Source of the DNA: Limnohabitans sp. Bal53
GTDB lineage: Bacteria > Pseudomonadota > Gammaproteobacteria > Burkholderiales > Burkholderiaceae_C
Assembly (NCBI RefSeq): GCF_003063355.1
Contig: NZ_NESH01000002.1
Span: 806,001 to 870,000 of the forward strand
Direction of reading: 5' to 3'
Length of the DNA: 64,000 bases
Positions 1,814-11,309 of the stretch are shown here, in pieces. Below the pieces are notes generated by a model. It had not been told where the DNA came from. It ran no database searches and saw only the letters and a list, made by a program, of their open reading frames with translations. Both the position numbers and the translations under genes were made by a program. Numbering within the stretch: the first letter of the stretch is position 1; each line of letters begins with the position of its first letter.

Positions 1814-1840
1814 TAAAGTTTTTTCTCCTCATACCGATTA
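1814..1840 (+). promoter_or_regulatory. Sigma-28 (FliA) promoter of the first flagellin
   Basis: TAAAGTTT (1814-1821), an 11-bp spacer and ACCGATTA (1833-1840) match the flagellar sigma-28 consensus TAAAGTTT-N11-GCCGATAA at 14 of 16 positions. It lies 35 bp before the flagellin ATG with GAGGAA as ribosome site, so it decides both the promoter class and the start. Confidence 0.85.
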
Positions 1841-1875: not shown

Positions 1876-2703
1876 ATGTCTGTCGTCAACTCCAATATGC
1901 AGGCCACCAAGGCACAGAACGCTTTGGTTCAAAACAACCGAGTGCTTAGCCAAACAATGGCTCAGCTCTCTACGGGCTCGCGCATCAATTCAGCGGCTGA
2001 CGATGCTGCAGGCCTAGCGATCAGCAACCAACTCAGCACTCAAGCCCGCAGCCTGAACGTGGCAGTACGCAATACCAACGATGGCATTTCGATGATGCAA
2101 ACTGCCGACAGTGCAGCAGGAGGTATTCAGGAAATACTTTTTCGGATGAAGGAGTTGGCGGTGCAGTCTATAAACGACACCAACAGTGATGATGAGCGAA
2201 CGGCTCTCAATGCCGAATTTGCACAACTTGAAACACAAATCACCAACACAGTGGCCAATACAACCTGGAACGGCATGAAGCTTCTTGATGGCACGGTTGG
2301 GAATGCAGGAACCGTTGGCTACCATGTTGGCGCTGCTGCAAATGACACGGTAAACGTGACTTATGCCGATTTTGATTTGGCAAATCAACCGCTCACTACC
2401 GCTCGCACCATAAACACAGCCGCAAATGCAAATACGGCATTGAGCTCTATCGATGGTGCCATCAACCAAATCAGCGAAGCCCGAGCTACTTGGGGTGCAG
2501 CCATGAACCGTTTGGTTCATGCGGGTGACAATGCAACCAACGTTTCCATGCATTTGACTGAGTCCAATAGCCGGATCAAGGACACTGACTATGCCCAGGC
2601 CACAGCAGAGCTTGCACGCGCCATGATCATGAACCAAGCCGGTTCTGCCATGTTGTCGCAAGCCAATCAACAACCTTATTACGTTTTAGCTCTACTAAGC
2701 TGA
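1876..2703 (+). CDS. fliC: Flagellin (short, sigma-28 controlled)
   Basis: 275 residues. The conserved D0/D1 N-terminus (LSTGSRINSAADDAAGLAIS, about residues 31-50) and C-terminus (AGDNATN, then helical NSRIKDTDYAQATAELARA) flank a very short variable middle, so the filament subunit lacks large D2/D3 domains. The extreme C-terminus ends PYYVLALLS instead of the usual PQSVLxLL, an unusual change in a segment used for FliS and D0 packing. Ser/Thr residues in the middle are possible O-glycosylation sites given the adjoining pseBC genes. GC content is lower than that of the second flagellin. A short stem with TTTGC/GCAAA arms follows at 2724-2737 but lacks a T-run. Confidence 0.95.
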   Translation: MSVVNSNMQATKAQNALVQNNRVLSQTMAQLSTGSRINSAADDAAGLAISNQLSTQARSLNVAVRNTNDGISMMQTADSAAGGIQEILFRMKELAVQSINDTNSDDERTALNAEFAQLETQITNTVANTTWNGMKLLDGTVGNAGTVGYHVGAAANDTVNVTYADFDLANQPLTTARTINTAANANTALSSIDGAINQISEARATWGAAMNRLVHAGDNATNVSMHLTESNSRIKDTDYAQATAELARAMIMNQAGSAMLSQANQQPYYVLALLS

Positions 2704-2714
2704 GGGATCGGTAC

Positions 2715-2730
2715 AGGCATGCGTTTTGCT
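2715..2730 (+). promoter_or_regulatory. Candidate sigma-54 promoter of the first TPR-like gene
   Basis: AGGCATGCGTTTTGCT has GG (2716-2717) and GC (2728-2729) spaced by 10 bp and a consensus TTGCT -12 element. It lies 62 bp upstream of the TPR-like ATG. The same gene order and a stronger sigma-54 site occur at the second copy (5896-5911), which supports this weaker match. Confidence 0.55.
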
Positions 2731-2791
2731 TTAGCAAAGGCTCAATGAGTGAATCGGCAAACCTATGCCGCCGTCTACCCTAGGAGCATCT

Positions 2792-3250
2792 ATGCTGCAC
2801 GCCGCCCCCGCCTTTCTGGCCAAAACGTCTTACTCGGCTCTGCTCGCCAGCGCCACCCAAGAACTCAGCCCCGCCAAAATCCGGCAATCGATTGCCGACT
2901 TGGTCGGCCAAAACAGGCTGGCTGAGGCCGATTTGTTGTCTCACGAGGCGATGCAACGCTTTCCGCAGAGCGAAGACATTCTCGTCATCCGCGCTTTGGT
3001 CACCCAGGTGCGCCAGGACTGGCCCGCCGCCAGCGGCGCCTTGGAAAAGTTAATCACCCTGCAAGGCCACGCCGCTCAGGCAGTGACTTGGGGCCAGTGG
3101 GTTCGCGTGCTGCGCTGCATGGGCGATGATGCCCGCGCCATGACCGTGGCTGCCCAAGGCCTGGCCACCCACCCCAAAGATGCACAGCTGCAGCAAGAGT
3201 TCAGTGCCTTGCAGCAAGTGGGCGTGCGCCCTGCGCTCAAGGTGGCTTGA
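2792..3250 (+). CDS. Short TPR-like protein, copy 1, next to flagellin
   Basis: 152 residues from the ATG at 2792, chosen because AGGAG (2782-2786) sits 5 bp upstream; an ATG at 2765 lacks a ribosome site. All-helical with TPR-like A/Y/P spacing. It is paralogous to the protein at 5983-6459: shared blocks include IRQ-x2-ADLV, SEDIL, QDW, RVLRC and HP-x-D. Both copies neighbour a flagellin and a sigma-54-type promoter, so a role with flagellin (export chaperone, stability or glycosylation helper, like a SycD-type TPR) is inferred, not shown. No named family recognised. A truncated duplicate of its 3' end lies at 5213-5341. Confidence 0.8.
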   Translation: MLHAAPAFLAKTSYSALLASATQELSPAKIRQSIADLVGQNRLAEADLLSHEAMQRFPQSEDILVIRALVTQVRQDWPAASGALEKLITLQGHAAQAVTWGQWVRVLRCMGDDARAMTVAAQGLATHPKDAQLQQEFSALQQVGVRPALKVA

Positions 3251-3261
3251 CGTTTGTGGGG

Positions 3262-3484
3262 GCATGGACTGCCACGTCGCTGCGCTCCTCGCAGTGACGG
3301 CAAGTTGGGCAGCGCTCCTCGCAGTGACGGTTGTCTCGTCATCGCGCCCTTTTCGAGTCCTTGCGATGCACGAAGCGATCCATGGATTGCCGCGCTTCGC
3401 TCGCAATGACGGGGTAGTGAATTGCCGGGCTTCGCTCGCAATGACGTTTAACCCGTCATCGCGAGGCACGAAGCGATCCATCCC
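3262..3484. repeat. Palindromic repeat family A, cluster 1
   Basis: Several full and half copies of an intergenic repeat whose halves pair: CGTCATCGCGAGG with CTCGCAATGACG and ACGAAGCGATCCATGG with CCGCGCTTCG. A full unit is about 56 bp and can fold into one long hairpin. This cluster begins 12 bp after the TPR gene and runs up to the hipA-like stop codon. Family A occurs in five clusters in the window. Confidence 0.9.
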
Positions 3485-3488
3485 CTGT

Positions 3489-4793
3489 CTAGGACGCTGC
3501 TGATGTGTTGTGGCTCTCAAACGCAGGCCTGAAGTCATTGAGCTCCTGTGTCTGTAAACCAACCTCTGCCGAGGTTGCCACATCTTTCCATCGTTCGACC
3601 GCTGCAGCCACTTCTTCAACGATGGATTGCGCCTGTGGCTGCGACAACTCAAAACGGGCGGCTTGATCCAGGAGCTGCTGGATCGAGGTAATCGGACCGC
3701 TGTCCTCACTGAGCCAGGTTTTGGATTCACGATCCTTGTCGGGGAATGGGTTCAGATCAAATGCCGGCGCCAGTCGCCACTGATTGTTTCCGCAGTACAA
3801 GAACCCGATGTTCTGCAGGTGATCATCCACATTCGTGATCAGGTGGTTGAACACCAGACGCCGCCACAATTGCCTAGCGTCTTGTACGAAGTTCTCACAC
3901 TTCATGCGCATCACATCGATGATTTCCGTGTACGAATGCTCATCGTCACGGTTGGCTTGCAACAGCGTGGCGCCTGAGATGTACGGGATACGATGGTGTT
4001 CGGGCGTGCGGTCAAACCGGCGAATCATCGCAACCGGCTTGCCCTGAACCATCACAACCCGTGCATGCGCGGTTTCAATGGATGCAAGTTGGGCCAAGCG
4101 CAGTGCCAGCACCTCGCCACGCGTGACTGAGCGCTCATCGTTCAAACTGGGAAACTTGCCCAGTGACAAAGCGCCATCCGAATCCAGGATGGTGCATTTG
4201 GGGCGCATCCCCCCAAGGGATGTTCCTTTGCCTTGAAGGTAGGCCAAGTCCTCAGCGGTTTCTTGGTTGGACTCTAACGCTCGGGATGCGAGTAGGATTT
4301 TTCCCAGCTCCAGGAACACCGGCGTAGATCGAGCGCCATCGGCGACACTGCGCTGGTAGTCGCCGCGCTCGTCTCGCAGCCGCAATGCACCCACCCGACT
4401 GAAATCATCCACGCAAGCAAGGTAGTCCGCCTCGGTCAATGGACCCAGTGACACATCTTTGGCGCGCGCCTTGGCATGTGCGCGTGCGATCACTCGCCGT
4501 CCCCAGGCGTCCGGCTCGGTATCGGCCAAGGCCAAGAAAAAACAGGTATCGTTTTTAGTCGGTGGCTTGCGCAGTTGGTAGCCGCTTTGACGTGTGAGAT
4601 CGGGTGATACATCGAAGAACTGGGCATCTGCTAACCAATCTTCGCTGTAGGCGAATTGAGAAAACTCTCGTTGGCCGTCTTTGACGAAGATGAGCCGTCC
4701 CAATGGCTTTTCTGCCTTGCCCAGGAAGACATCCATCTGAGTTCGTGTCGAGGCTTGTCTGTTGACGGGTTTGACAGAAGGGTTGGTGGCCAT
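3489..4793 (-). CDS. HipA-family serine/threonine kinase (toxin-like)
   Basis: 434 residues, typical for HipA. The glycine-rich loop GKGTSLGGMRPK (residues 188-199), RRFDR (258-262), the catalytic-loop NVDDHLQN (321-328; D323 or D324, N328) and the metal-binding AFDL (D346) follow HipA order, so the kinase looks intact. HipA proteins phosphorylate glutamyl-tRNA synthetase or other targets and cause growth arrest; the target here is unknown. It overlaps the upstream HTH gene by one base, as in hipBA operons. The module lies between a TPR gene and a truncated copy of that gene's 3' end, suggesting insertion. Its GC content is lower than the surrounding fli-type genes. Confidence 0.85.
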   Translation of the reverse strand: MATNPSVKPVNRQASTRTQMDVFLGKAEKPLGRLIFVKDGQREFSQFAYSEDWLADAQFFDVSPDLTRQSGYQLRKPPTKNDTCFFLALADTEPDAWGRRVIARAHAKARAKDVSLGPLTEADYLACVDDFSRVGALRLRDERGDYQRSVADGARSTPVFLELGKILLASRALESNQETAEDLAYLQGKGTSLGGMRPKCTILDSDGALSLGKFPSLNDERSVTRGEVLALRLAQLASIETAHARVVMVQGKPVAMIRRFDRTPEHHRIPYISGATLLQANRDDEHSYTEIIDVMRMKCENFVQDARQLWRRLVFNHLITNVDDHLQNIGFLYCGNNQWRLAPAFDLNPFPDKDRESKTWLSEDSGPITSIQQLLDQAARFELSQPQAQSIVEEVAAAVERWKDVATSAEVGLQTQELNDFRPAFESHNTSAAS

Positions 4794-5128
4794 CAGAAGG
4801 CTCCAGATTCAGGTGATTTGCGAGACTTACGCACGCGTTGGGGCAATTTTTCATCCATCAAGGTCAGGCCGATGGTGTCCTGAGGCGTGTCGAGCAATTG
4901 ATTGAGCTGCTCCAATTCCCCGAACACTTGCAATGCCCTGGCCAGATGAACCAGGGCCGTACCCGGGTGTCCTGCCTCCATTCGCCGCACGGTGTGAGCC
5001 GAGGTGCCAATCCGCTGCGCAAAATCTTGCTGGGTCAGGTGCCTGCGCCGGCGCGCAAGCGAAATAGCCTGACCGAGCCGGGTCAGACTGCGTACAACGG
5101 GCAATGGTGGCGGAGATAAAGATTTCAT
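4793..5128 (-). CDS. HipB-like XRE-family HTH antitoxin/repressor
   Basis: 111 residues. An HTH of the Cro/CI type occupies residues 20-53, including TQQDFAQRI and a recognition helix TSAHTVRRMEAG. The C-terminal 30 residues are basic and may reach into the kinase, as HipB tails do. The stop codon overlaps the hipA-like start in a TGATG arrangement, so the pair is translationally coupled. A 10-bp inverted repeat covers the start codon, which indicates autorepression. No Shine-Dalgarno sequence precedes the ATG at 5128; the mRNA may be near-leaderless. Confidence 0.8.
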   Translation of the reverse strand: MKSLSPPPLPVVRSLTRLGQAISLARRRRHLTQQDFAQRIGTSAHTVRRMEAGHPGTALVHLARALQVFGELEQLNQLLDTPQDTIGLTLMDEKLPQRVRKSRKSPESGAF

Positions 5129-5156
5129 TTAAAGCAAATTTTATAGTGCTTTAAAT
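5127..5156. promoter_or_regulatory. Inverted-repeat operator over the hipB-like start codon
   Basis: Perfect 10-bp arms ATTTAAAGCA (5127-5136) and TGCTTTAAAT (5147-5156) are separated by a 10-bp AT-rich spacer, so the half-sites are centred 20 bp (two helical turns) apart. The left arm includes two bases of the start codon. This is what one expects for a HipB dimer site shutting off its own operon. Confidence 0.75.
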
Positions 5157-5212
5157 TATTTAAGAAATCATATATGCAGGTTTAACTTTGAAACCCACAA
5201 AAATTATCTTTT

Positions 5213-5341
5213 TTGGTCACGCAAGTGCGCCAGGACCGTGGCCACTCAGGGCCTGGCCACCCACCCCAAAGAGGCGCAGCTGCAGCAAGAGTTCAATGCT
5301 TTGCAGCAGGTGGGTGTGCACCCTGCGCTCAAGGTGGCTTG
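5213..5341 (+). pseudogene. Truncated, frameshifted copy of the TPR-like gene 3' end
   Basis: Bases 5213-5236 match 2996-3019 of the intact gene; the sequence then jumps about 120 bp and bases 5235-5341 match about 3144-3250 closely, still encoding ATQGLATHPKEAQLQQEF and ending in the same PALKVA-stop. The jump shifts the frame by one base and occurs at a shared GAC. The similarity continues past the stop into the repeat array (to about 5445). So the 3' end of the TPR gene plus its downstream repeats exist on both sides of the hipBA-like module. Confidence 0.85.
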
Positions 5342-5353
5342 ACGTTTGTGGGG

Positions 5354-5735
5354 GCATGGACTGCCGCGTCGCTGCGCTCCTCGCAGTGACGGTTATCTCG
5401 TCATCGCGCCCTTTTCCAGTCATCGAGAGTCACGAAGCGATCCATGTCATTCCCCGTCATCGCGAGGCACGAAGTGATCCATGCCGTTCCCCGTCATCGC
5501 GAGGCACGAAGTGATCCATGCCATTCCCCGTCATCGCGAGACACGAAGTGATCCATGCCATTCCCCGTCATCGCGAGGCACGAAGTGATCCATGGATTGC
5601 CGCGCTTCGCTCGCAATGACGGGGTAATGAATTACCGCGCTTCGCTCGCAATGACGAAGAAAAGTAATTGCGCCCTTTTTCCCGTTATCACGAGGCACGA
5701 AGCGATCCATCCACCGGTCATCGCGAAACACGAAG
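5354..5735. repeat. Palindromic repeat family A, cluster 2; gene-free to 5982
   Basis: About eight copies or half copies of the CGTCATCGCGAGGCACGAAG..CGATCCATG unit, many as tandem half units only about 36 bp apart (5455, 5491, 5527, 5563). The start of the cluster is duplicated from 3251-3375. No gene is supported between 5342 and 5982; the rest of the gap is AT-rich DNA and a sigma-54 promoter. Confidence 0.88.
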
Positions 5736-5895
5736 CCTTGCCGCCTGTCGGCAACGCATTGCCGCTTGGCCACTGTTGGATAGATTTCAGCCGCTCCAAA
5801 ATCAATTTTTCACCGTTTGCAATTCGGAAGTACTTATTTTTTGAATTTTCACGAATTTTTATGCAAATAAATATCGATTGAGGCTAAAGAAAAGC

Positions 5896-5911
5896 TGGCA
5901 CGCGGTTTGCT
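5896..5911 (+). promoter_or_regulatory. Sigma-54 promoter of TPR copy 2 and second flagellin
   Basis: TGGCACGCGGTTTGCT is a textbook -24/-12 element (TGGCAC-N5-TTGCT; GG and GC spaced 10 bp). It lies 71 bp before the TPR-like ATG. No sigma-28 site is visible in the 57-bp gap before the second flagellin, so that flagellin probably depends on this promoter. Confidence 0.85.
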
Positions 5912-5982
5912 TAAAGGGATTCATCTTCGGTTTTGGCCATGTAGCACCGAAATTTTGACACCCCTTTTCAGGAGACCTGAAC

Positions 5983-6459
5983 ATGACATCCCTTTACCAA
6001 GCCATGCTGTCGCAAGCCGTATCTGGTCAGATGCTGAGCGTGCGCGATGTGTCGCAATTCACTGCGGCCGAAATTCGCCAGACCATGGCCGATTTGGTGG
6101 CCGCCAACCGGATTGATCTGGCCAATGCATTGGCCGCTGCGGGCCAAAGCCTGTACCCCGAGAGCGAAGACATTTTGGCCATCAGCGCCTTGCTGGCCGA
6201 GATCCAGCAAGACTGGACAGGCGCCGAAGAGTTGCTGCGCAAACTGGTCGATTCCCAAGGCGCTGCCGCCACCCCATTCACTTGGCGTCACCTGATTCGG
6301 GTGCTGCGCTGCCAATGCGAGCCAGGCAAGGCTTTGCAAGTGGCCCAACAAGCCATGTTGGCACACCCCAGCGATATGACTTTGAGTGACGAGTTTTTGG
6401 CTCTTCAAGAGTTGGTCTCTGAGCAAGTACCTGTGACCGCATCTGTCCAGACGCACTGA
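5983..6459 (+). CDS. Short TPR-like protein, copy 2, upstream of flagellin
   Basis: 158 residues, paralogue of the protein at 2792-3250 over its whole length (shared IRQ-x2-ADLV-x2-NR, ESEDIL, QDW, IRVLRC, HP-x-D-x2-L-x2-EF-x-ALQ). CAGGAG lies about 8 bp before the ATG. Helical, cytoplasmic, no signal peptide. It sits behind a strong sigma-54 promoter and 57 bp ahead of a flagellin, probably in one transcript. A chaperone or regulator specific to flagellin is the simplest inference; the general sequence resembles TPR secretion chaperones, but no specific family is recognised. The canonical FliS is not in this window. Confidence 0.82.
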   Translation: MTSLYQAMLSQAVSGQMLSVRDVSQFTAAEIRQTMADLVAANRIDLANALAAAGQSLYPESEDILAISALLAEIQQDWTGAEELLRKLVDSQGAAATPFTWRHLIRVLRCQCEPGKALQVAQQAMLAHPSDMTLSDEFLALQELVSEQVPVTASVQTH

Positions 6460-6516
6460 GACCAGCTACCTGCCACACCCCATTTAACTGAACACTCTTC
6501 TTAAAGATTCACAGCC

Positions 6517-7464
6517 ATGTCCGTCATCAACACCAACATCAAGTCGCTGGTTTCACAAAATGCACTCAACAAAAACAACGAGTCTCTGGCCTCGGCCATG
6601 CAACAGTTGTCTACTGGTAAGCGCATCAACAGCGCGGCAGACGATGCCGCGGGACTGGCCATTTCATCCCGGATGACCGCCCAAATTCGGGGTTTGGATC
6701 AAGCGGTCCGCAATGCCAACGACGGCATTTCGCTGTTGCAAACTGCAGAAGGCGCCTTGATTGAGGTCACCAACATGATGCAGCGCATGCGTGAACTGTC
6801 CGTTCAGGCGGCCAACGACACCAACACCGCCTCTGACAGGGTATCGCTGAATCTGGAATACGGCCAACTGATGCAAGAGATCAACCGCATTGCGCAAAAC
6901 ACGCAATGGAACGGAATGAGCATCATGAACAACACGACCACTGGGGCTGCGGCCATCGGAACGGGTGGTACGGTAGCGGAACCGGCTGCGGATGGTGCAG
7001 AGCTGCGCAACATCAATTTTCAGGTCGGTGCCAATGCCAATCAAATCATCAGCGCTCAGTTCAAGGACTTCTCAGTCCCAATGACTGCCGCAGGCATTCC
7101 CGACACTGCAGCAGTTCCAGCCGACACACAAATTTTCAGTGGCGACGCACAGCTCAACGACACCGACATCACCTCAGCAAGCAATGCGAACACCGCAATG
7201 GCGCGACTGGATGCCGCATTGGGGAAAATCACAGACGAACGAGCCACCTACGGTGCTGTCATGAACAGATTGACTTATGCAGGTGACAACTTAACCAATG
7301 TGTCGCAAAACACCTCCGAATCGCGAAGCCGCATCATGGACACTGATTACGCAAAAGCCAGCGCGGAGCTATCCCGTACACAGATCATCTCGCAAGCAGC
7401 CACAGCCATGCTGGCGCAAGCAAACCAGTCGCCTCAATCGGTGCTCAAGCTGCTGCAGGGCTAA
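6517..7464 (+). CDS. fliC: Flagellin (second copy, sigma-54 transcript)
   Basis: 315 residues. The N-terminal D0/D1 helix (LSTGKRINSAADDAAGLAIS, about 31-50) and C-terminal helix ending PQSVLKLLQG are canonical. The central region is about 40 residues longer than in the first flagellin, rich in Ala/Thr/Gly, and still lacks large outer domains. The two differ enough to be functionally distinct filament subunits. It follows TPR copy 2 by 57 bp without its own visible sigma-28 site, and a strong intrinsic terminator follows. Confidence 0.95.
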   Translation: MSVINTNIKSLVSQNALNKNNESLASAMQQLSTGKRINSAADDAAGLAISSRMTAQIRGLDQAVRNANDGISLLQTAEGALIEVTNMMQRMRELSVQAANDTNTASDRVSLNLEYGQLMQEINRIAQNTQWNGMSIMNNTTTGAAAIGTGGTVAEPAADGAELRNINFQVGANANQIISAQFKDFSVPMTAAGIPDTAAVPADTQIFSGDAQLNDTDITSASNANTAMARLDAALGKITDERATYGAVMNRLTYAGDNLTNVSQNTSESRSRIMDTDYAKASAELSRTQIISQAATAMLAQANQSPQSVLKLLQG

Positions 7465-7518: not shown

Positions 7519-7537
7519 CGCCCTTTTACAGGCTTTC

Positions 7538-7553
7538 TGGCACAGCTTTTGCA
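7538..7553 (+). promoter_or_regulatory. Sigma-54 promoter ahead of a 57-residue protein
   Basis: TGGCACAGCTTTTGCA matches TGGCAC-N5-TTGC with 10 bp between GG and GC. It lies just past the flagellin terminator and 125 bp before the next start codon, so a separate flagellar-class transcript begins here. Confidence 0.75.
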
Positions 7554-7677
7554 CACCCTTGAGGCACAGCGCTTGTTTTGTTCCGAGCCGACGTTTTGTT
7601 GACAGGGCCACACCCCGCCAACACTCGCCAGGCTTGCAAAACCGCACCACTTGCCCAAGCCATTGACCGGAGAAGCC

Positions 7678-7851
7678 ATGACACCCACTGCCCACCACTC
7701 GCCCGAAGCCACACGCCACTTTTTGGTGGCCATGTGCGCCAAAGCCAACAGCCAGTTGTCGGCCCAGGGATTGGCCGCAGCGCCGCATCTGGCTGTCGCG
7801 GCCCAAGCCAACCTGGACCTGGCCACGGTGCTGGATTTGCTGCGCGACTGA
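7678..7851 (+). CDS. Small protein of unknown function with sigma-54 promoter
   Basis: 57 residues from the ATG at 7678, with GGAG at 7669-7672. Composition is Ala/Leu/Asn/Gln-rich and mostly helical, with a single Cys and no signal or membrane segment. I do not recognise a family. The preceding -24/-12 promoter and position after the flagellin terminator point to co-regulation with the flagellum: possibly a small regulator, export adaptor or anti-sigma-like peptide. That role is inference from context only. Confidence 0.6.
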   Translation: MTPTAHHSPEATRHFLVAMCAKANSQLSAQGLAAAPHLAVAAQANLDLATVLDLLRD

Positions 7852-7954
7852 ACTCGTAAACGGCTTGCCCCTCCAACCCATATCCAAGCACTTGGCCAGC
7901 GTTGCCCATGGCAGACTGGCACAATCAAGAAATTCACCAAAAGCTGCAAACCCC

Positions 7955-8188
7955 ATGCGCCCCAGCCCACTGAACAAAGCCAAAAACAAGGATTGCAAAG
8001 TCTGCCGACGCATTCGGCAATTTTTGATCCTGGCCGCTGCATTGCTGGTCCTGATGTGGGCGCAGCCCGGTTGGCGTTTGCCGCCCGGCTTCGATTACAC
8101 GACCTTGGTGGGTGACTTGTTTTTGTGGGCCTTCTTGGCGCTGTTCGCCTTCAAGGCTTGGCAACACTACAAAGACCGAGACCGCTGA
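7955..8188 (+). CDS. Small two-helix membrane protein
   Basis: 77 residues from the ATG at 7955; a longer TTG-started reading from 7865 has no ribosome site. The N-terminus is basic with CKVC (CxxC), followed by two membrane segments (about residues 24-36 and 50-67) and a charged tail (HYKDRDR). Hypothetical; the type is often seen in Burkholderiales. Its stop overlaps the next start in TGATG, so it is coupled to the following small gene. Confidence 0.6.
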   Translation: MRPSPLNKAKNKDCKVCRRIRQFLILAAALLVLMWAQPGWRLPPGFDYTTLVGDLFLWAFLALFAFKAWQHYKDRDR

Positions 8189-8418
8189 TGCCTGCCATGA
8201 CCTCTGCCCCTACAACCACCGCCCCACCGCAACGTGGACCCAATTGCTGGGGCTGCCGTTTTTTTGGCGTGAGCCATATCCCGTCCAGCCCTTACGTCTG
8301 CCGGGCAATGGGTTTCCAAACCAAAACTCTGCCCTCGCTCGAAGTCTTGCGGGTGGATGGCCAGTTTTGCCGATCCTTTGAGGCCAAGGCCTCTGTCAGC
8401 GTATCTTCCAAACCATGA
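8188..8418 (+). CDS. Small cysteine-containing protein
   Basis: 76 residues from the ATG at 8188, overlapping the previous stop by one base. A Pro/Thr-rich N-terminus precedes CWGCRFFGVSH, then C-R-A-M-G-F and F-C-R-S-F: four cysteines in a CxxC-x(14-15)-C-x(20-23)-C pattern that suggests a small metal-binding fold. No family recognised. It overlaps the next gene by four bases (ATGA), so three genes 7955-9221 form a coupled operon. Confidence 0.6.
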   Translation: MPAMTSAPTTTAPPQRGPNCWGCRFFGVSHIPSSPYVCRAMGFQTKTLPSLEVLRVDGQFCRSFEAKASVSVSSKP

Positions 8419-9235: not shown

Positions 9236-9676
9236 AATGGATTGCCGCGCTTCGCTCGCAATGACGCAGAGGGGTCACCACACCCCGTCCCCGTCATCAT
9301 CCCACACCTCCCCCGTCATCGCGAGGCACGAAGCGATCCATGGATTGCCACGCTTCGCTCGCAATGACGCAAAGGGGTCACCACGCCAATTCTGGTCACG
9401 TAACCTTTCCCCGTCATCCCACACCTCCCCCGTCATCGCGAGGCACGAAGCGATCCATGGATTGCCACGCTTCGCTCGCAATGACGCAAAGGGGTCACCA
9501 CGCCAATTCTGGTCACGTAACCTTTCCCCGTCATCCCACCCCTTTCCCGTCATCGCGAGGTACGAAGCGATCCATGGATTGCCGCGCTTCGCTCGCAATG
9601 ACGCAGAGGGGTCAGCACGCCAATTCTCGTCAACTGACCCCTTCCCCGTCATTGCGAGGTACGAAGCAATCCATCT
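9236..9676. repeat. Palindromic repeat family A, cluster 3 (tandem 117-bp units)
   Basis: Three near-identical units begin at 9314, 9431 and 9548, a period of 117 bp. Each holds the full palindrome (CGTCATCGCGAGG to CTCGCAATGACG) plus a conserved non-palindromic spacer containing AGGGGTCACCACGCC. Half units flank them at 9238 and 9648. The 615-bp gap 9222-9836 holds only this array and a promoter; reading frames through the array are artefacts of its codon pattern. Confidence 0.92.
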
Positions 9677-9788
9677 TCAGGGCAAGTGTCAATCTTTCGT
9701 CAAGGTCCCAAAGCGTCGGAACCCTGATTAGTCAAAATTAAAGTATTCATTTTTTAAAATAAAAACCACTTAAATTAGTTTTTAAATC

Positions 9789-9836: not shown

Positions 9837-11309
9837 GTGAAGCCAACTCCTGCATCTGCCCCTCTGGCCCTTTGGCTGGACCCTGAAAAACCGCTGAGCC
9901 CCGAGCACAGCCAAGCCCTGCACACCAGCGGCTGGGCGGTGATGCCGGTGCACACGCTCGATACCCTGGTGTCGCACGCAGCCGATGCGGCCGTGGTGGT
10001 TTTGCACCTGAGCGTGGATGTGACCCGTTTGAAGGCCGTTCAGCAACTCCTGCAAGAAGCCGGCATGAACACTCCCGTGGTGGCACGGGTCGAGCGCCAA
10101 GAACTGGAGCTGGCCGTGGAAGCCAGCCAGGCGGGCGCCTTGGCCGTGTTGGCCGCTTGCGATACGCGCAGCGCCAGCTGGATGCGTTTGCACAGCCTGC
10201 TCAACCCCCACGCTGCCCGCACCAACACCCAACCCACACGCAACGTGGTCTTTGTGGACCCCGCCAGCCAGCACCTGCTGGCCCTGGCCCAAAAAGTGGC
10301 ACAAGCCGATGTGACGGCCTTGCTGGTGGGCCCCACTGGCTCGGGCAAAGAGGTGATGGCACGCGTACTGCACGAGGCCTCGGCCCGTGCACGCGGCCCC
10401 TTTGTGGCCCTGAACTGCGCGGCCATGCCGGAAAACCTGATCGAAGACATGCTGTTTGGCCACGACAAGGGCGCCTTCACGGGCGCACACCGTGACCAAA
10501 AAGGATTGTTTGAACAAGCCCAAGGCGGCACCCTGTTCTTGGACGAGATTGGCGAGATGCCCATGCACCTGCAAAGCAAGCTGCTGCGCGTGCTGCAAGA
10601 GCGCCAGCTGACCCGCCTGGGTGGCCAAAACGTGATTCAGTTGAACGTGCGCATTGTGGCTGCCACCAACAAGGACTTGAAGCAGGCCATCGCCGAGCGC
10701 GAGTTCCGCGAAGACCTCTACTACCGCATTGCCACCTTCCGCATGCGTTTGCTGCCTTTGTGCGAGCGCCCGGGCGACATCATTCCCTTGGCCATGCAAT
10801 GCCTGAGCCAGCACGACCACCAGGTCTGGCGCTTGCACCCGCAAGCACAGGCCATGCTGCTGCAATACCCCTGGCCCGGCAATGTGCGCGAGCTGGAAAA
10901 CGTGATGCGCCGCGCCATGGTGCTGTGCACCGACCACCATGTCACGCCCGCGCACCTGATGTTTGACGACTGGTTGACCCAAGCAGCGCCCGCTGCAGCT
11001 GTGCAGCCTCAAGCTGCTGACGCCGTGGCCGCTGACCAGCCCGGCATGCCCGCTGCGGATGAAACCCGCTGGGTGCCTACCCACTCCGATCAGCAGACAC
11101 AAGCACCTTACCAAGTGCCCCCCAGCGTTGCACCAGCCGATTTGCAAAGCGCCGTGCGCCTGAACGAACACCAGGTGATCATGGCCACACTGGCCAGCAC
11201 CCCCAGCAAAACCGAAGCGGCCAAACGCCTGGGCATCAGCCCGCGCACGCTGCGCTACAAGATGGCCCAGTTGCGTGAGCACGGCTTGGCCATGGCGGCG
11301 GCTTGCTGA
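9837..11309 (+). CDS. Sigma-54-dependent flagellar activator (FlrC/FleR position, degenerate receiver)
   Basis: 490 residues; GTG start with GAGG 7 bp upstream. The AAA+ domain is complete: Walker A GPTGSGKE (165-172), GAFTGA sigma-54 contact loop (212-217), Walker B GTLFLDEI (231-238), and a Fis-type HTH at the C-terminus (KTEAAKRLGISPRTLRYKM). Residues 1-120 resemble a receiver fold, but the phosphoacceptor strand reads VVVLHLSVD, without the usual Asp at that position, so activation may not need a kinase. No sensor kinase gene is adjacent. Position directly before fliE equals flrC in Vibrio. FleQ-like is an alternative name. Confidence 0.85.
   Translation: MKPTPASAPLALWLDPEKPLSPEHSQALHTSGWAVMPVHTLDTLVSHAADAAVVVLHLSVDVTRLKAVQQLLQEAGMNTPVVARVERQELELAVEASQAGALAVLAACDTRSASWMRLHSLLNPHAARTNTQPTRNVVFVDPASQHLLALAQKVAQADVTALLVGPTGSGKEVMARVLHEASARARGPFVALNCAAMPENLIEDMLFGHDKGAFTGAHRDQKGLFEQAQGGTLFLDEIGEMPMHLQSKLLRVLQERQLTRLGGQNVIQLNVRIVAATNKDLKQAIAEREFREDLYYRIATFRMRLLPLCERPGDIIPLAMQCLSQHDHQVWRLHPQAQAMLLQYPWPGNVRELENVMRRAMVLCTDHHVTPAHLMFDDWLTQAAPAAAVQPQAADAVAADQPGMPAADETRWVPTHSDQQTQAPYQVPPSVAPADLQSAVRLNEHQVIMATLASTPSKTEAAKRLGISPRTLRYKMAQLREHGLAMAAAC

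Follow-up and report, generated by a model that had tools for sequence, protein, structure and literature searches.

Accounts of flagellin export usually feature a single dedicated chaperone, FliS. In injectisomes, the class II chaperones are tetratricopeptide repeat (TPR) proteins whose genes lie near those of their substrates and which hold these substrates in their concave face; flagellin chaperones are classed apart from them, as a different helical class (PMC10333785). Here we consider two genes, T1 and T2, that code for small three-TPR proteins and stand beside flagellin genes in a 64,000-nucleotide stretch of DNA from Limnohabitans sp. Bal53 (positions 806001-870000 of contig NZ_NESH01000002.1, in a genome of 3.64 Mb), hereafter the window. 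An initial annotation of this stretch had proposed that T1 and T2 represent a dedicated flagellin partner. Comparison across genomes indicates that the pairing between the T family and flagellin is real and strong and far beyond chance. It is undescribed so far within the literature searched, where no description of the T family was found either. Given its near-constant place beside a flagellin, T is probably a dedicated helper for that flagellin, lying outside the standard flagellar parts list. A conserved additional gene so closely bound to the early flagellin is a sign that the first-made flagellin is treated differently in some bacteria.

Both flagellins of the window, F1 and F2, are genuine, matching Flagellin_N and Flagellin_C (PF00669 and PF00700) above the Pfam cut-offs, and they are 46% identical to each other. 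F1 (1876..2703, + strand, 275 aa) precedes T1 (2792..3250, +, 152 aa), whose start, the second ATG as judged from alignment with relatives, lies 88 nt past the F1 stop. T2 (5983..6459, +, 158 aa) ends 57 nt ahead of F2 (6517..7464, +, 315 aa). Family profiles, A1 and then A2, were built from the window and its relatives. T is present in 39 of the 80 sampled genomes of the window's genus; a fortieth, G692, was excluded as a weak match in a 749-residue frame, as was locus L083, which holds two pseudogene fragments of one T1. A Flagellin_N match, a count that also takes in FlgL, occurs in 58 of the 80 genomes. All 39 T-positive genomes are among these, and T occurs in none of the 22 genomes without such a match. 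Distances were taken from the Flagellin_N matches listed on contigs with T. Among these, a flagellin lies directly downstream of a T on the same strand in 38 of the 39 genomes, with 73 to 443 nt between T match and flagellin domain; in the 39th (G687) a T1-type gene directly follows a flagellin, 98 nt past its stop. All 51 T matches of the genus sample, one of them broken, are at most 1.9 kb from a listed flagellin.

The same arrangement extends beyond the genus. We read 16 loci there, ten from the same family (including two near-alike loci from Ramlibacter metagenome-assembled genomes) and six from two other families of the order, and in 15 of them a flagellin follows directly, 50 to 422 nt past the T stop. 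The adjacency is still found in members with no more than 33% identity to T2, and it has withstood insertions, among them the hipBA-like genes discussed below. The neighbourhood check suggested in the initial annotation thus came out in favour of a flagellin partner: homologues situated far from flagellar genes, which it had named as evidence to the contrary, did not turn up, with a single exception (L043). The range of the family is narrow. In the family sample, 11 of 299 genomes have a T member (weak matches in 614- and 623-residue frames of G081 and G185 excluded); in the order sample, 8 of 399 do (weak matches in long open frames of G341, G491 and G572 excluded); and of the 369 genomes in the class sample, the window's own is the only one that does (ten weak matches in 297- to 900-residue frames excluded). 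These searches scored 9 to 12 first-look candidates per genome and may miss distant T genes; within these samples and this partial scoring, T is restricted to parts of one order.

The flagellins behind T range from 278 to 1,896 residues in open-frame length and have mainly their terminal regions in common. Very long ones, of 945 to 1,896 residues, stand behind T at L040-L042, L044, L045, L059-L061 and L063, and L062 has a flagellin of 730 residues next in line and another of 1,331. Flagellins of giant size have been described (PMC6248924). These flagellins often end in KLLQG or a similar tail, others often in ALLK or SLLR. We dropped this tail as a signature of T, since T-less genomes also have KLLQN, QLLQN and KLLG ends; it seems to mark a flagellin subfamily.

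Promoter arrangement is a second conserved property. Sites were scored with a weighted sigma-54 consensus, with a maximum of 16.5 and a threshold of at least 13.5; five T genes were left out because the sequence available ahead of them was too short. In 59 of the remaining 61, many from close kin and hence not independent, a site lies 54 to 117 nt before the start; among control tiles of the window, 17 of 207 score as high. The two T genes without a site (L109, L110) are the second members of tandem T-T pairs in which the first gene has one. The -24/-12 promoters that the initial annotation placed before each TPR gene were therefore borne out: that of T1 (CAGGCATGCGTTTTGCT, 2714..2730, +) is recognized by its consensus score and kept in relatives, a site standing at -74 to -80 before all seven genes of the window's T1 clade, and that of the T2-F2 unit (CTGGCACGCGGTTTGCT, 5895..5911, +) reaches the full score. 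When the gap between T and flagellin is at least 130 nt, a second sigma-54 site is present (17 of 17); when it is less than 130 nt, there is none (0 of 37). The 130-nt limit was chosen after inspection of the data, which contain no gaps of intermediate length (between 107 and 132 nt). The pattern suggests that sigma-54 also controls the paired flagellin, by way of the T promoter or of one belonging to the flagellin itself. Sigma-54 and sigma-28 scans found no promoter proper to F2, and T2-F2 is presumed to form one sigma-54 operon.

T1 and T2 are paralogous (43% identity, E 7e-34). The alignment covers 120 of their 152 and 158 residues and leaves out about the first 23, so that the whole-length match claimed initially is slightly overstated. 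Both are under purifying selection, with a median Ka/Ks of 0.08 for T1 (21 pairs) and 0.18 for T2 (45 pairs). Each exceeds the Pfam cut-off of 23.5 bits for TPR_14 (T1 27.6, T2 24.9), a model that matches 29 of 30 family members at E up to 0.1, and generic TPR is all that rises above the Pfam cut-offs in either protein. AlphaFold2 predicts three TPR hairpins and a capping helix for both (T1: mean predicted local distance difference test score 84.4, predicted template-modelling score 0.77; T2: 89.2 and 0.81). In fold comparison many TPR proteins tie, among them IpgC (Z 13.5, root-mean-square deviation 3.3 over 120 residues) and O-GlcNAc transferase. Searches of solved structures gave generic TPR matches, with SctY, FliS and LcrH not prominent, which is no statement on their absence. 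Positions were assigned with the canonical TPR numbering, anchored on A47/A81/A117 and P59/P129. Over 30 sequences the mean entropy is 1.14 bits in the groove and 1.01 in the core, against 1.99 on the outer face. Arginines R32, R106 and R109 of the groove are invariant in every row (of 30) covering them, which would point to a ligand that is itself conserved and carries acidic or carboxylate groups.

No named family fits T beyond generic TPR, and the assignment to an unrelated family that the initial annotation had held out as a counter-indication did not materialize. Neither T1 nor T2 matches FliS (PF02561), FliS_cochap (PF16522) or the FlaF and FlbT Pfam families at E up to 1, and LcrH_SycD (TIGR02552) is absent from the 19 families matched by the 30 members at E up to 0.1. 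For HrpB1_HrpK (PF09613, cut-off 29.3 bits) T2 scores 13.0 bits and T1 gives no match; weak matches occur in 8 of 30 members with the Pfam model (best E 4.4e-4) and in 3 of 30 with that of NCBIfam. The SctY model (NF052415, cut-off 70 bits) matches 8 of 30 members weakly (best E 1.4e-7); in members scanned singly it gives 27.0 bits for L042, 14.3 for L061 and nothing for four others. This signal is a generic TPR echo: a control, itself an ordinary TPR protein, reaches 32.7 bits, and 379 of 399 genomes give a SctY match. Membership of T in SctY or HrpB1 was dropped on account of such generic matches.

The initial annotation saw no FliS, which is correct for the surroundings of T1 and T2. The genome has the gene 30 kb before the window, however (contig 775161-775502), as a gene distinct from both. 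FliS is found in 37 of the 39 T-positive genomes of the genus, the two others being 84% and 62% complete. Its retention makes T an addition to FliS, and we rejected the idea of T as a FliS replacement.

We put at roughly 45% the probability that T works alongside FliS in the cytoplasm, as a TPR protein that escorts or holds the early flagellin of the sigma-54 class. In favour of this are the near-constant flagellin neighbour, the sigma-54-type sites that T and flagellin share, the confidently modelled TPR fold, the groove with its lower entropy than the outer face, and the example of the class II chaperones. The sigma-54 class usually includes the hook-basal body genes. If T and its flagellin are both made under sigma-54, flagellin would exist ahead of the export switch to filament subunits, and an escort or holding protein fits the need of a flagellin made so early. 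T would bind the newly made flagellin, keep it soluble and unpolymerised while the hook-basal body, dependent on the same sigma factor, nears completion, and then hand it on to FliS and the export gate. As partner flagellins of such different lengths share mainly their ends, the function of T should concern these ends or flagellin synthesis, and contact would probably be made at the conserved terminal D0/D1 parts. T2 would serve F2, the flagellin of its own operon, and T1 might be a second copy for F1-type flagellin or for other cargo. One could go further and, at somewhat less than even odds, see in T a second kind of flagellin chaperone, a stand-alone class II-like TPR escort made from the early flagellin's own sigma-54 unit and holding flagellin before the FliS/export switch. 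Such a chaperone would be at work in one branch of Burkholderiales, among whose species are some with flagellins as long as about 1,900 residues. T is also a candidate for the partner of very long flagellins, about whose treatment ahead of export little is known. Mutants need not be impaired: deletion of HP1076, the Helicobacter flagellin accessory, has no detrimental effect on flagellation or motility (PMC7248283), and a null phenotype is possible for T too.

Several observations weigh against an escort role. The fold search ties unrelated TPR proteins with IpgC and so leaves function undecided, and the T proteins reach none of the chaperone family models. T is missing from 19 of the 58 Flagellin_N-positive genomes of the genus, although some of these matches look like FlgL only. 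Thirteen flagellin regions of nine T-less genomes contain no T-like frame at E below 10 (best tblastn E 0.038). Sigma-54-type sites stand before 4 of the 14 flagellin-like genes in these regions (L120, 16.5; L117, L119 and L125, 15.0 each), so that T is dispensable in evolution and early flagellin can manage without it in those species. At L043 there is a T with no flagellin in 18 kb. In the window's own genome a third flagellin, F3 (contig 792296-793132, outside the window), has no T neighbour, so that the pairing of each flagellin, as first annotated, holds inside the window (F1-T1, T2-F2) and not for the genome as a whole; F3 has a weak sigma-28-like match (p 0.56) whose form recurs in L007, L010 and L013. 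Nor does sigma-54 control seem to cover F1. Measured against a sigma-28 consensus, F1 has a site of that type (TAAAGTTT-N11-ACCGATTA, 1814..1840, +) that none of 100 shuffles equalled; an equal site precedes the F1 orthologue in L012 and a weaker one that in L007 (p 0.13), while the best sigma-54 score before F1 is 12.5 of 16.5 (p 0.05). F1, the neighbour of T1, thus looks sigma-28-driven.

Genomics cannot separate an escort from a translational regulator of the FlbT type, which fits nearly as well. In that case T would sense unexported flagellin or bind its message and so couple translation of the sigma-54 flagellin to hook completion. Such a device would work whatever the middle part of the flagellin, and the position of T directly before flagellin, with a shared early type of promoter, would suit it. 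FlbT and FljJ provide a precedent in Caulobacter (PMC7591256). T shows no FlbT or FlaF resemblance at the level given above, however, and T1 lies downstream of its flagellin with a promoter site of its own. To our knowledge, moreover, the TPR solenoid is not a usual RNA-binding fold. On balance we regard a regulator as possible but unlikely.

A role in glycosylation, which the initial annotation had listed among those of a partner, is not supported. T would here be an adaptor presenting flagellin to a glycosyltransferase, as does the N-terminal TPR domain of FlmG, which binds flagellins (PMC7591256). Sugar genes are indeed close by: PseB adjoins F1 on the opposite strand, some 6-8 kb ahead of the window there are a NeuB-family gene (contig 798976-799692) and one for a PF01973 protein, and GT41, LicD and other sugar-type genes occur near some T loci. 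We take PF01973, named MptE-like in Pfam, to stand for Maf-type flagellin glycosyltransferases. Yet the NeuB-family nonulosonate synthase, a family needed for pseudaminic-type sugars, is present in 11 of the 39 T-positive genomes and PF01973 in 4 of them. These counts argue against an adaptor, as T does not track these best-known genes. The neighbouring sugar genes also vary from locus to locus, and T1 and T2 (152 and 158 aa, TPR helices only in the models) have no glycosyltransferase domain of the FlmG type. With the two families surveyed over 80 genomes, co-occurrence gave the adaptor no support, and we hold it to be improbable.

We attach equally little credence to the idea that T acts on the adjacent regulator or secretion machine (the sigma-54-dependent activator, FliE/FliF or the export gate) and owes its flagellin neighbour to the compactness of the cluster. 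The activator gene (9837..11309, +, PF00158), which lies beside fliE-fliF, is found downstream of T2-F2 in many relatives too, and among the longer loci there are many in which activator and fliE/fliF come after the T-flagellin unit. YscY, a component of injectisomes, is a TPR protein. The chaperone complex YscX:YscY binds the export gate (PMC9163089). Against this, T1-like copies sit right after flagellins on contigs other than those of T2 (L112, L113), neither the activator nor fliE/fliF was recognized in the stretch read of L046, L047, L060 and L064, and the matches to SctY are generic. Lastly, that T is a TPR gene of unrelated function trapped in a flagellin operon is very improbable: its confinement to parts of one order, the flagellin-free T of L043 and the T-less relatives that keep flagellin would agree with hitchhiking, which is at odds, however, with strong purifying selection, with extra copies that also lie beside flagellins, and with an adjacency that has outlasted deep divergence (33% identity to T2) and the insertion of elements like hipBA.

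T1 is looser than T2 in its genomic setting. Wherever both are visible, genes of the T1 clade lie upstream of T2-F2, and what precedes them varies: in the window, L007 and L012 it is an F1-type flagellin; in L004 it is an ALTTAQ-repeat protein (PF20080) and no flagellin, as it probably is in L003 and L005, to judge from contig-edge remnants; and in L006 it is a methyltransferase-like gene, by eye. Both T genes are present in the Limnohabitans records T6-20 and G3-2. In G711 and G696 T1-like genes follow flagellins on contigs separate from T2 (L112 and L113, respectively), and one T1 copy (L013) is interrupted by stops. In the tree a T1 clade of seven genes stands apart from T2 with support of 100/99 and is joined weakly (41/93) by L112 and L113; as branches are long, 17 forks open and the bootstrap not settled, we rely on the T1 clade alone. 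The order F1-T1-T2-F2, the separate T1 clade and the non-flagellin gene before T1 in L004, and probably in L003 and L005, speak against a simple tandem duplication of a T-flagellin unit, the second possibility raised in the initial annotation, and this scenario was abandoned. ALTTAQ-repeat proteins, of 708 and 1,479 residues in L004 (41-6764) and of 1,369 residues near T in L043, might be another T-linked protein.

Between T1 and T2, on the other strand, lies a HipA/HipB-like toxin-antitoxin pair (3489-5128). On its far side is a 166-nt copy of the T1 3' end (5227..5392, +), 92% identical to 3135-3300 and also visible as a short T match. The hipBA module looks as if it had been inserted along with the duplication of the T1 3' end. 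In L008, too, there are vestiges of both hipA and the T1 end, and L009 has a full-length hipA match. An intergenic repeat around GTCATCGCGAGGCACGAAGCGATCCATGG and CGCTTCGCTCGCAATGAC, noted by eye, is present in many copies at 3250-3490, 5340-5760 and 9237-9731, flanking the T/hipBA region.

From its left end the window carries PseB (other strand), F1, T1, the hipBA-like pair (other strand), T2, F2, small genes, the sigma-54-dependent activator and then, as identified by eye, genes resembling fliE and fliF. After F2 there is a 57-residue open reading frame (ORF; window 7537-7851) with a strong sigma-54 site, CTGGCACAGCTTTTGCA, ahead of it. It has relatives in 9 of the 13 closest loci, while neither Pfam nor NCBIfam gives a match for it at E up to 1. 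Behind it two small ORFs (window 7951-8418) appear conserved by eye behind the T2-F2 flagellin, with counterparts in L059-L062; one has CxxCxxIR and a hydrophobic stretch, the other GPNCWxCRxF and further cysteines.

How T stands to described systems can be summarized as follows. To the TPR proteins SctY/YscY and HrpB1 it is linked by weak profile matches only, in the case of SctY 27 bits at best in six singly scanned members against a cut-off of 70. HP1076 of Helicobacter, the FliS_cochap protein, is like T a lineage-restricted accessory and acts at the flagellin-FliS step (PMC7248283), but T has no FliS_cochap match in Pfam at E up to 1. The N-terminal domain of Caulobacter FlmG shares with T its TPR nature and binds flagellins in the cytoplasm (PMC7591256); T, however, is a free-standing protein, not joined to a glycosyltransferase as in FlmG, and does not track nonulosonate genes. 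With FliS, T would have in common a flagellin client, presumed in the case of T, and a cytoplasmic export role, whereas the two differ in showing no sequence match and in coexisting in 37 of 39 genomes. The FliS fold, too, differs from the TPR fold of T. A further likeness is to the class II chaperones of type III secretion, SycD/LcrH and IpgC. T differs from these in that none of its 30 members matches LcrH_SycD at E up to 0.1, in that its presumed partner is a flagellin and not a translocator, and in that the rank of IpgC is tied with unrelated TPR proteins. Like them, however, it is a protein of about 150 residues with a conserved concave groove and a gene near that of its presumed secreted substrate, and its modelled helices may correspond to their N-terminal helix and three TPRs.

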